Assembly (NCBI GenBank): GCA_024680915.1
Contig: JAILBN010000026.1
Coordinates: forward strand, 1 to 35,152
Source: Treponemataceae bacterium
Lineage (GTDB): Bacteria; Spirochaetota; Spirochaetia; Treponematales; Treponemataceae
Direction: 5' to 3'
DNA length: 35,152 nt
Below, piece by piece: positions 1,716 through 4,971 of the stretch. Numbering within the stretch: the stretch's first letter is position 1; the number at the start of each line of letters is the position of its first letter. A program made the translations under genes and the position numbers. The notes under the pieces were generated by a model. The model did no database searches. It was not told the DNA's origin and was given only the letters and a program-made list of their open reading frames with translations.

Positions 1716-3053
1716 TCATTCTATCACATTGAACACATTCTTAATTGCATACAATGGATAGACTTTTATATCATCATACTCACAAAAATTCTCTAGCGAT
1801 GTACGTATGCCGTAAGGCTTTTCCTTTAGTGTCAGAAACTGACGCAAACTTTGCATCGAACCTTTTTTGCTTGCCTTCACCTCAACAGGAATAATCTCAC
1901 TCCCTCTTTGAATTACGTAATCAACTTCTGCATTGCTACCAGGCTCTTCCTTGTGCCAACAATACAATTCATTCTTTTCATAAAACGAAGCAGCTTTCAT
2001 CAGTTCGTTTCCTATAAAAGTCTCTGCAATCGCACCTTTGTTGATGACATCAAAATCTTCTGAAACCAGAATATCTTCTGCTTTTAAATTTAGCTGCCTT
2101 TGTAGTAGTCCTGTGTCAAAATAAATCATTCGCTTATAATCTTCCCTAAGTTCCGCTCCAAGAGGAATTCCGTTTGCAGCAGTATGAGTAACAGGATATA
2201 CAAGCCCCGCAAGAATCAACACTTCAAGGGCGGCTTTTATCTGCTCTGTTCGAAGATCAGGATTTGCTCTTTTGTAGACGAACTTTCCTTGTCCTTGCTC
2301 TGCAACAGAACGGAAAACATCCTGTATTCTTGAAACTGGTACACGCTTACGATATTTTGAAAAATCATCTTGATATGAAATCAAAAGGTCATTCTGAATT
2401 TGCCGACATATAAGGAAATCATGCGTTTTGCACCAATTAGAAACGACTTCTGGCATTCCACCAAGAATCAAAAAATTGCGAAGTTCCTGCAGAAGTTTCT
2501 TATGAAATATTTCATCAAGAGGCTTCCCTGGGGAGGCTTTGTTCATTTCATCACATAGTGCATTCAAATTTTGAAAAGTTAAAAACTCCTCAAACGAAAG
2601 CGGATACATAAAAATAGATCGAATTCGCCCGACACCAAAAGACGGCAACTCTTCAAGAGAAAACTCTAAAAGAGAACCTGCGGCAATTACATGAAGATTA
2701 GGAATCTGCTCGTAAAAATACCGTCGTTTTTCTATTGTCTCCGGGCAAGCCTGAATTTCGTCAAAAAAAAGAAGTGTTTTTCCTTCTTCTATCGGGATGT
2801 TCTTTATAACCGCAATTTTCTGACACAATTCTTTTATAGGAATATTCTGAGAAAATAGAGCAAAAATATCAGCGTTTTCAGAATTCAAAAAATCGATTTC
2901 GACATAATGCTTAAACGATTTGGCAAGCTGACGAACTGTAGAGGTTTTCCCAACTTGTCTGGCACCGCGTAACAACAAGGGTTTTCTATCCTGTTCGTTT
3001 TTCCATTCGAGTAAAGCTTTATCGATTTTGCGCACGGCATATTCCGATTTCAT
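1716..3053 (-). CDS. AAA-type ATPase with DUF4143 domain
   Basis: 445 residues, typical length for this family of AAA_14 plus DUF4143 ATPases. The Walker A motif GARQVGKT is at residues 30-37 and the Walker B motif LLFFDEI at 94-100. The middle (about 200-320) is the DUF4143 region. Near the C-terminus a VDYVIQRG...IPVEVKASKKG stretch has the D-x(n)-E-x-K spacing of a PD-(D/E)XK nuclease fold. These proteins occur in many copies in some gut bacteria and spirochaetes; their role is not settled. The start ATG (3051-3053) follows TTAGGT, a weak ribosome-binding site. It stands alone between two matching terminators, with tandem repeats just upstream, and looks like an independent cassette. Confidence 0.88.
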   Translation of the reverse strand: MKSEYAVRKIDKALLEWKNEQDRKPLLLRGARQVGKTSTVRQLAKSFKHYVEIDFLNSENADIFALFSQNIPIKELCQKIAVIKNIPIEEGKTLLFFDEIQACPETIEKRRYFYEQIPNLHVIAAGSLLEFSLEELPSFGVGRIRSIFMYPLSFEEFLTFQNLNALCDEMNKASPGKPLDEIFHKKLLQELRNFLILGGMPEVVSNWCKTHDFLICRQIQNDLLISYQDDFSKYRKRVPVSRIQDVFRSVAEQGQGKFVYKRANPDLRTEQIKAALEVLILAGLVYPVTHTAANGIPLGAELREDYKRMIYFDTGLLQRQLNLKAEDILVSEDFDVINKGAIAETFIGNELMKAASFYEKNELYCWHKEEPGSNAEVDYVIQRGSEIIPVEVKASKKGSMQSLRQFLTLKEKPYGIRTSLENFCEYDDIKVYPLYAIKNVFNVIE

Positions 3054-3065
3054 ACCTAAAGTGTA

Positions 3066-3183
3066 TCAAAATGGCACCGAAAATGCAAGCAAAACCGTTC
3101 AAAATGGCACCGAAAATTCAACTAAAACCGTTCAAAATGGCACCGAAAATACAAGCAAAACCGTTCAAAATGGCACCGAAAAC
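3066..3183. repeat. 33-bp tandem repeat, 3.6 units
   Basis: Three full units (3066-3098, 3099-3131, 3132-3164) and a partial fourth (3165-3183). Each begins TCAAAATGGCACCGAAAA and ends AAAACCGT, with differences only in the middle eight bases. The repeat starts 13 bp upstream of the ATPase start codon, so it lies in that gene's promoter or 5' leader. The period is a multiple of three, so two plus-strand frames stay open and would encode 11-residue repeats, one containing QNGTEN. No plausible ribosome-binding site supports translation. Confidence 0.9.
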
Positions 3184-3222
3184 AAAAAAAAGACCGCCCG
3201 AAAGGTCCGGACGGTCTTTGGT
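3181..3222 (-). terminator. Rho-independent terminator of the ABC importer operon
   Basis: A hairpin at 3191-3217 (arms AGACCGCCCG and CGGACGGTCT, one mismatch, loop about seven bases) is followed on the minus strand by a run of eight T (3183-3190 read in reverse). It lies 50 bp after the stop codon of the solute-binding protein. It is nearly the same hairpin as the one at 1611-1642. Confidence 0.85.
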
Positions 3223-3267: not shown

Positions 3268-4971
3268 TTAGTTATCACGTTTGTAGATTTCGTTTGTAAG
3301 GTCAACGATAGCTTTGCTGTTGAGTGTGTCACAAGACTTGATGTAAGCATCCCAGTCTTTGTTGAGGTCTCTCTGTCCTGTGATGAACTGGAGTGACCAT
3401 GCTGCGATGTTGTCCTTGAGTGGTGTTCCCCAAAGGTTAAGCTGCTCGCTCTCGTCTTCTGTAGCTTTTACAGCAGGTGAAAGGAGTTTTGCTGTTCTGT
3501 ACTTTGACAGACGAGCATAGAAGCTCTGGAGGTAAGGAGCGAAGTTGTCGGAAACCTCAGCCAATGTATGAGCATACCAGAAGTTACCACCAGCATAACC
3601 CCACTTGAGACGGATATCAACATCATCCTCAGCACCAGCGATTCCGAGACCACCGCACTTGAAGCCAGGAAGAAGTTTCTTAACTTTTACACCTGTCTCA
3701 GCATCTGTCTCCCAGTGCCATGTCTTTCCTTCAGGACCCCATTTGTAGAGGCTGTAAGCTTCTGATGAATACCAGAACCAGTCTACGAAACGAAGCATCT
3801 TGATGAATTCTGCTTCCCCAAGCTCGTCAAGAGCACGTGTAGCAATCATAACACCGTTCTCAAGGCGTGAAGACTCAGCTGTGTATGTATAAAGTCCTAC
3901 TGGAGTCATTGCATAGTAAAGCTCGTAGTTTCCTGCGCCGATACCTGCATCAAGACCAGAACGGAATGTCTCATACTGACCGCGGTTAACGGAGATGATA
4001 GCTGTCTTACCATTGTAGAATTTACCTGTAGCTGTCTGATCATCCTGTGTGAAGGTCTCTGGATCAAGGATTCCACCCTTTACATACTTGTTAACGAGAG
4101 CAAGGAATTTCTTCATGTTCTCGCTGCCAGCTGCGAAGTACCACTCATTCTTGTCGTGGTCGAACTGAACACCGTTTCCAAGAGCCCATCCGGCGTTGAT
4201 TCCGTATGAGTTACCGATGATCTTAAGAAGGTTACCACCTGTGCCCTGTCCTGACTCAGAACCGCACCAGAGGTCTGACCATACATAGTCTTTATCTGTG
4301 ATCAAGCCCTGCTTAACCATGTATGCCTTAACTTTGATAAGGTCATCATAGAGGTCATCCCAATTCCATGTCTTCTCGCGCTCTTCAAGGTTGATACCAG
4401 CAGCTTCGAAGAGGTCCTTGCGGAGAAGGATTGTATAGTCCTGCATAGCTGCTTCATGCATACCAGGCAGGCGGTAGAATTTACCATCTTCCTTAACGAT
4501 TGTATCAACATCTGTTTTCATGTTGTACTTGTTATAGAATGCTGTGAAGTTAGGCATATATTTTGTCCACTCAGAAACAGCGACAACAGCGCCACCGTTA
4601 ACGAACTTGGACTCATCATATACCTTAGGGATGATGTAAGCAGAATCACCAGCATTGATAGCGAGAGTAATCTTGTCTGTGTATACAGATGAATCATAAG
4701 ATGTGATATCAAGATGAACGTTTGTAAGTTCCTCGATATCCTTGAACAAACCTTCAGTCTTCCATGTATCAACCATTGGATACCAAGAAGCATCACTGAA
4801 GAACATTGTATATGTTACAGGCTCGTCAGAGTGGAATGTAACACCTTCGCCATAGGTATAACCTTTGGCTTCACCAGTTGCAGCAGCAGTTGTGTTGGCT
4901 TCTTTTCTTCCACCAGCGACAAGAGCTACAACCATCAAAAGAGCAACAAGAATCATTGCTAACTTTTTCAT
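3268..4971 (-). CDS. Extracellular solute-binding protein of ABC importer (LplA-like)
   Basis: 567 residues, the size of the long family 1 solute-binding proteins that pair with LplB/LplC permeases and usually bind oligosaccharides. The N-terminus (MKKLAMILVALLMVVALVAGG) is a clear Sec signal peptide: a lysine pair, a hydrophobic core, then polar residues. At the place where a lipoprotein would have cysteine there is Gly-Gly, so it may be processed by signal peptidase I and be free in the periplasm. An AGGAGG site lies seven bases before the ATG. It is the last gene of the operon, about 100 bp after the LplC-like permease, and ends at a terminator. The ligand cannot be deduced. Confidence 0.9.
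   Translation of the reverse strand: MKKLAMILVALLMVVALVAGGRKEANTTAAATGEAKGYTYGEGVTFHSDEPVTYTMFFSDASWYPMVDTWKTEGLFKDIEELTNVHLDITSYDSSVYTDKITLAINAGDSAYIIPKVYDESKFVNGGAVVAVSEWTKYMPNFTAFYNKYNMKTDVDTIVKEDGKFYRLPGMHEAAMQDYTILLRKDLFEAAGINLEEREKTWNWDDLYDDLIKVKAYMVKQGLITDKDYVWSDLWCGSESGQGTGGNLLKIIGNSYGINAGWALGNGVQFDHDKNEWYFAAGSENMKKFLALVNKYVKGGILDPETFTQDDQTATGKFYNGKTAIISVNRGQYETFRSGLDAGIGAGNYELYYAMTPVGLYTYTAESSRLENGVMIATRALDELGEAEFIKMLRFVDWFWYSSEAYSLYKWGPEGKTWHWETDAETGVKVKKLLPGFKCGGLGIAGAEDDVDIRLKWGYAGGNFWYAHTLAEVSDNFAPYLQSFYARLSKYRTAKLLSPAVKATEDESEQLNLWGTPLKDNIAAWSLQFITGQRDLNKDWDAYIKSCDTLNSKAIVDLTNEIYKRDN

Follow-up and report, generated by a model that had tools for sequence, protein, structure and literature searches.

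The locus and its question

What is the function of a short tandem repeat that lies immediately before the start codon of an ATPase gene? The stretch of DNA analysed here (the window) comprises 35,152 nucleotides of a Treponemataceae genome, and it contains one such array, for which the first-pass annotation had put forward three roles: an operator through which the ATPase regulates itself, an addiction or phase-variation element, or a coding repeat of 11 residues. From sequence comparisons and structural models, we favour a form of the first: at a probability of roughly 60%, the array serves as an operator for the ATPase gene, and the ATPase would bind it through a winged helix and thereby repress its own promoter.

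A 33-bp array over the predicted promoter

Tandem Repeats Finder (TRF) reports a single array in the window (3066–3182; period 33, 3.5 copies, 92% matches, score 206). This bears out the three and a half near-perfect 33-bp units that had been noted just upstream of the ATPase start; the boundary placed at 3066 is correct, and that placed at 3183 lies one base too far. The first 26 bases (TTTTCGGTGCCATTTTGAACGGTTTT) are the same in all three full units, with differences confined to the last seven (GCTTGTA, AGTTGAA and GCTTGCA), and a 23-base core occurs three times in the window versus zero expected from shuffles. The locus is made up as follows:

1716–3053, minus strand: AAA_14-DUF4143 ATPase gene, 445 amino acids, PDC-S01 family (Pfam PF13173 and PF13635; PADLOC)
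3060–3065, minus strand: probable -10 box TACACT, 17 bp past the -35 box and 6 nt before the ATG (read from the sequence and L056–L059)
3066–3083, minus strand: partial repeat unit 4 (18 bases), TTTTCGGTGCCATTTTGA, between the probable -35 and -10 boxes (sequence; likewise arranged in L056–L059)
3083–3088, minus strand: probable -35 box TTGCAT, weak alone (read from the sequence and orthologue comparison)
3084–3116, minus strand: repeat unit 3, TTTTCGGTGCCATTTTGAACGGTTTTGCTTGCA, the end of which gives most of the probable -35 box (sequence, TRF, core match)
3117–3149, minus strand: repeat unit 2, TTTTCGGTGCCATTTTGAACGGTTTTAGTTGAA (sequence, TRF, core match)
3150–3182, minus strand: repeat unit 1 (promoter-distal), TTTTCGGTGCCATTTTGAACGGTTTTGCTTGTA (sequence, TRF, core match)
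3189–3219, minus strand: terminator of the upstream solute-binding-protein gene, the outer boundary of the array region

Since the ATPase gene is on the minus strand, the array immediately precedes its start; and because it is enclosed between the terminator of the upstream gene and the ATPase start codon, the array constitutes the entire promoter region. The adjoining genes encode a solute-binding protein and an exonuclease, and the contig is chromosomal, with a division gene cluster; there is no replication-initiator gene or origin beside the array, as there would be for plasmid iterons or a replication origin. When up to three mismatches are allowed, the 26-mer has no further site in the 3.15-Mb genome, which rules out a regulon that shares this site elsewhere in the genome. 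Chance or an assembly artefact as the origin of the array is ruled out by the TRF result, the core count, the orthologues and the arrays of other relatives (see below).

Two further observations concern the surroundings. In the window, a stretch that resembles a terminator and contains GACTGAAAAGTCTTATGCGGC follows the ATPase gene (1606–1700), whereas in a congener (genome G001; L048, about 800–880) it is found on the side of the solute-binding protein; the difference hints that the region around the insert has been duplicated or rearranged. In the window's genome, the start of another DUF4143 gene (L007) is preceded by three direct repeats spaced at 23 bp (GCCAAAnnCTGTATT).

The predicted promoter rests on a comparison with four orthologues, L056 to L059. 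In the window, the partial last copy of the repeat leads straight into TACACT (3065–3060); the corresponding boxes, as read from the orthologue sequences, are TTGCAT-17-TACACT (L056), TTGATT-17-TACACT (L057), TTGATT-17-TAGACT (L058) and TTGACT-17-TACAGT (L059), a layout that places repeat core inside the -35/-10 spacer. A consensus scan of the window did not report this promoter because its -35 box is weak. The ATPase transcript is probably leaderless or nearly so, with a start at the ATG or a few bases off.

TAnnTTTG is the -7 box of Bacteroidota. It is present in the last 120 bp upstream of 38 of the 54 loci with good arrays (the four Treponema/Spirochaetales orthologues being left out of this count), as compared with about 12% in shuffles, and 35 of these 38 boxes are either inside the array or no more than 40 bp from its end. 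Overlap of array and predicted promoter, which is expected of an autoregulatory operator array, is found in the window, and the Bacteroidota boxes lie in or near their arrays. The register of the repeats relative to the -10 or -7 box varies among lineages; one geometry of occlusion therefore does not fit them all, a point against the operator reading.

The ATPase and its nuclease-like domain

The gene product scores well above the Pfam gathering cut-offs for both AAA_14 (91.5 bits versus 27) and DUF4143 (98.7 bits versus 28.1), and it matches three PDC-S01 models in PADLOC, of which the best (PDLC04786, E=2.6e-139) extends over residues 7–441, that is, over the whole protein. By its sequence it belongs to PDC-S01, a candidate phage-defence family; the fusion of an ATPase to a PD-(D/E)XK domain that goes with this assignment is evident from the domains, from the invariant residues D378, E391 and K393, and from fold matches. 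In an AlphaFold2 model (pLDDT 89.6, pTM 0.90), an AAA+ core is followed by a winged helix (about residues 239–312) and a C-terminal alpha/beta domain, which are encoded as follows:

2118–2339, minus strand: codons of the winged helix (about residues 239–312), the proposed DNA reader (AlphaFold2 model, fold matches, covariation)
1731–2090, minus strand: codons of the PD-(D/E)XK nuclease-like domain (about residues 322–441; invariant columns, fold matches)

The top structural matches of the ATPase are archaeal proteins, 2qen (Z 16.9, rmsd 4.7, 280 aligned) and 2fna (Z 16.2); next come NLR/CED-4 cores and Orc1/Cdc6-type proteins. In a model from which the AAA+ part was left out, the C-terminal domain resembles Can2/Card1-type DNA nucleases (a moderate Z of up to 8.5) as well as McrC, VRR_NUC and Hjc; the winged helix there resembles 2qen (Z 7.7, also moderate), MarR-like regulators and ORC. 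The likeness to 2qen and 2fna, to Orc1/Cdc6 on origin DNA and to winged-helix regulators counts in favour of the operator reading. E344, D378, E391 and K393 are unchanged in all of 46 sequences, as are the Walker residues, and for that reason the ATPase–nuclease looks to be an active enzyme. The fold similarity of the AAA+ core and winged helix to STAND/MNS ATPases is high, a statement about structure comparison as distinct from clade motifs. This similarity supplies a point against the operator reading: the fold family includes NLR/CED-4-like STAND ATPases, in which the winged helix is a switch, not a DNA reader.

Array and gene travel together

The orthologue with 95% protein identity to the window ATPase (L056) has about six copies of the repeat versus 3.5 in the window; the two at 85% identity (L057 and L058) and the one at 81% (L059) have three copies each. 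L057/L058 and L059 sit in genomic surroundings other than the window's, and the DNA similarity of the window to these three loci runs from -95/-96, inside the array, to just short of the stop codon: the common, co-inherited unit is exactly array plus gene.

This bears on the idea that a separate host (or global) regulator acts on the ATPase gene by binding to the array; a precedent is RptR, a small regulator on the direct-repeat operators of a defence island (PMC12255303). The differing surroundings have no regulator gene in common, just array plus gene; the array is found nowhere else in the genome; and the cores, as described below, differ among the paralogues of one genome and agree across phyla for similar proteins. 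We regard a separate regulator as distinctly unlikely.

The six copies in the 95%-identical orthologue could also be taken as a sign of a contingency element, in which expression is tuned or switched as 33-bp units are gained or lost. Against this, the divergence of the last seven bases and the retention of period and position over phyla argue for binding sites, and many relatives have just two or three imperfect copies. Unit number does differ in near relatives, yet switching is not indicated, and the phase variation raised in the first-pass annotation is to our minds very unlikely.

Two loci show remnants or duplicates of the repeat. At the syntenic site in the congener G001 (L048, about 735–800), which has no ATPase gene, two repeat units remain and abut the neighbouring gene, apparently as the result of an ATPase gene loss that spared part of the array. 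In L058, a further repeat-like copy and a tag, GAGAACTGAGAGTT, recur past the end of the ATPase gene (3325–3360) in addition to standing before it, so that short direct repeats border the gene on both sides.

The spacing is kept across the family

Relatives were drawn from a scan of one genome per species plus 99 genomes of the order, and direct repeats with periods of 15 to 60 were scored in the 220 bp upstream against dinucleotide shuffles. The best upstream period was 33 in 72 of 106 loci and 32 in another 16; in those same 106 loci, the preference for 32–33 bp is absent from the gene body (no case) and from the downstream sequence (two cases). With start codons refined, significant 32–33-bp repeats were found upstream of 60 of the 78 close relatives (47–95% identity; a Bacteroidota-rich set picked by similarity to the window protein, which also includes Spirochaetota, Omnitrophota and Lentisphaerota) and of 14 of the 27 remote relatives (42% identity or less), as compared with 2 of 158 upstream regions of other ORFs at the same loci. 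Approximately one-fifth of the close relatives and one-half of the remote ones are without a significant array in this test, which tells against the operator reading. Arrays of 32 bp also accompany plasmid-borne relatives in Segatella, Criblamydia (Chlamydiota) and Fusobacterium, and some relatives on viral contigs have 33-bp arrays.

The spacing is therefore kept in most of the related loci for which the first-pass annotation had proposed this comparison, and it is the core sequence that varies. The outcome is the opposite of the one that this annotation had named as refuting, in which related ATPase loci would have no repeats. Its argument that units three helical turns apart face the same side of the DNA fits a spacing of 32–33 bp that is held while the letters change, and its suggestion of self-regulation is both supported and widened by arrays of the same spacing upstream of most relatives.

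The same comparison speaks against a translated repeat encoding an 11-residue peptide repeat. Two plus-strand frames are indeed open across the array, because 33 is divisible by 3; the period of 32 in many relatives breaks the frame, and the cores are not kept as codons, with neither a maintained frame nor conserved residues. We give this reading practically no credence.

We record two other results here. In some of the remote relatives (L146 and L149), each unit of the 32-bp-spaced array is a palindrome (TGTGAGTATAATCACA and AAAAGTCATAGGACTTTT), unlike the unit in the window. A search of 2.9 million viral contigs for phage targets carrying the core gave one exact 18-mer; being a single copy, apparently within a coding region, on a GC-rich contig, it is attributed to chance.

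The core follows the protein subfamily

While spacing is constant, cores differ by subfamily: GGTGCCATTTT, TTGCCTTGACTTTTTG, GGTTTGGATTTTTGT, GGGTACTAAAAATG and GCCCTGATATTCCGACAG, among others. Loci with two or more copies of a GGTGCC-type core occur only among the nine whose proteins are closest to that of the window, a set that spans Treponema and Bacteroidales; the GGTGCC-carrying Bacteroidales loci L060 and L063 encode proteins with about 58% identity to that of the window. Paralogues within a genome illustrate the point: in G005, two that the genome carries in addition to the window orthologue have CCCTCATAAAAATGTAA at 32 bp (L159) and ATTATAAAACTTGTAAA at 33 bp (L161), and in G035 the paralogues L149, L152 and L153 have differing cores at a spacing of 32–33 bp.

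Across the family, motif similarity correlates with protein identity (Mantel r=0.32, a value reached by none of 2000 permutations), a correlation that is partly due to common descent of array and gene. With overall identity regressed out, residue identity in the winged helix tracks motif similarity (mean 0.035 versus about 0 elsewhere), and it is in the winged helix alone that co-varying residues are enriched (circular-shift rank 4 of 445). The covariation is moderate, with column correlations of up to about 0.3; the top columns include positions of the recognition helix (274, 278) and of the wing (306, 308), and some are outside the winged helix (58, 54 and 405). These data are suggestive, not proof, that the winged helix reads the array. 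The first-pass annotation had pointed to the ATPase as the DNA binder, which we retain, by way of its nuclease-like C terminus, in place of which the model and the covariation make the winged helix the likelier contact. The retained spacing and the subfamily-specific letters together suggest that each protein may read its own array to control itself.

Promoter elements of sister ATPase families

The array is not a general feature of all related ATPases: arrays of 32–33 bp are present in 0 of 28 loci of a DUF4143 subfamily of about 390 residues and in 0 of 26 ATPase_2 (PF01637) loci. The promoters of the 390-residue subfamily have significant inverted repeats in 18 of 28 loci versus 10 of 135 controls; ATPase_2 promoters have 15-bp repeats (9 of 26) or palindromes (12 of 21). 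In the former group (L199–L227, e.g., L203, L210, L216 and L220), the inverted repeats often span a TTGACA box, as in GGTACAATTTGTAAATTGAATTGACAATTTGTACC; in the latter (L169–L198, e.g., L179, L176 and L173), L179 has several copies of TCTAGTAGAGAGCAC. The whole group of ATPases thus appears to favour operator-like elements in its promoters, with a geometry particular to each family, and the 32–33-bp direct-repeat array is the form found in the window's subfamily. The elements of the sister families support, at the level of sequence, self-regulation as a common theme.

A proposed mechanism

We propose that these iteron-like direct repeats, placed three helical turns apart over the ATPase gene's own promoter, serve as docking sites on which ATPase molecules would assemble side by side through their winged helices. 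At three turns apart, all units face the same side of the helix, as a cooperative row of AAA+ subunits would require; the bound form would probably be an AAA+ oligomer, with one bound unit per three turns. By covering the -35/-10 region, the bound ATPase would repress its own transcription, and a candidate defence nuclease would be kept at a low level until a change of nucleotide state, a phage signal or loss of the protein released it.

A different use of the same binding is conceivable: the array might chiefly be where the ATPase does its work, a platform for loading or storage on which the AAA+ protein assembles and the nuclease is kept inactive, with promoter overlap a secondary matter. 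Such a platform, likened to Orc1/Cdc6 or DnaA on their boxes, would agree with the fold matches to Orc1/Cdc6 on origin DNA, with the intact ATPase and nuclease residues, and with a three-turn spacing that suits oligomer assembly. It accounts less well for an array that is upstream, near the promoter, and not downstream of or within the gene, and the single palindromes and short promoter repeats of the other ATPase families suit repression better than assembly. We judge a platform of this kind to be rather unlikely.

To the operator reading may be added a more speculative step, to which we attach a small weight: the array would be part of the defence itself, in that the ATPase–nuclease would be held as an inactive oligomer on its private array, and losing the bound state would both switch the gene on and free the nuclease. 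If so, release could come through a phage-induced change of DNA or of nucleotide state, and each PDC-S01 subfamily would be a self-contained module of array plus enzyme, many of which could coexist in one genome without cross-talk.

Relation to known systems

A conserved, subfamily-specific promoter array would be the first handle on the mechanism of PDC-S01. It would serve as a DNA ligand for gel shifts and structures and as a reporter for the trigger; it would give a specificity code, winged helix versus repeat core, that can be tested by swaps; and as a cis mark it would identify functional modules in genomes. The literature searched, outside which most subscription journals fall, contains no description of PDC-S01 promoter arrays.

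Over residues 1–322, the best structural matches of the window protein are SSO1545 (2fna) and PABY2304 (2qen), which we take to belong to another Pfam family, ATPase_2; in relatives of the window's genome, the ATPase_2 genes have palindromes or 15-bp repeats instead of 33-bp arrays. That initiators regulate their own expression is well established. Orc1/Cdc6, DnaA and plasmid iterons resemble the present case in the combination of AAA+ core and winged helix, like that of Orc1/Cdc6 on DNA, and in their tandem direct repeats; they differ in that the window has no sign of a replication origin, the array is on the chromosomal promoter of one gene, and the protein carries a nuclease domain.

Within PDC-S01, the protein shows the joining of an ATPase to a PD-(D/E)XK domain that PMC12988326 describes for the family. 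The same paper reports PDC-S01 to be fourth in frequency among prokaryotic defence families and says that most PDC systems still await experimental validation; PMC13356809 reports PDC-S01 to be the most frequent individual locus in rumen genomes. In so far as their text is accessible, the published accounts differ from ours in presenting a single gene of unvalidated function, with no mention of a promoter array.

The closest regulatory parallel may be drawn with RptR, for which three direct repeats at a defence-island promoter are bound cooperatively by the repressor (PMC12255303). In both cases direct repeats overlap the -10 region of a promoter for defence genes, a predicted promoter and a candidate defence gene in ours; binding is cooperative and represses in the case of RptR (PMC12255303), and both properties are proposed here. 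RptR is a separate, small, dimeric regulator of 9-bp repeats around TAGCTA (PMC12255303), a motif absent from the window's 33-bp unit. The arrays described here have units of 32–33 bp and unrelated cores, and we propose that the defence ATPase binds them itself.
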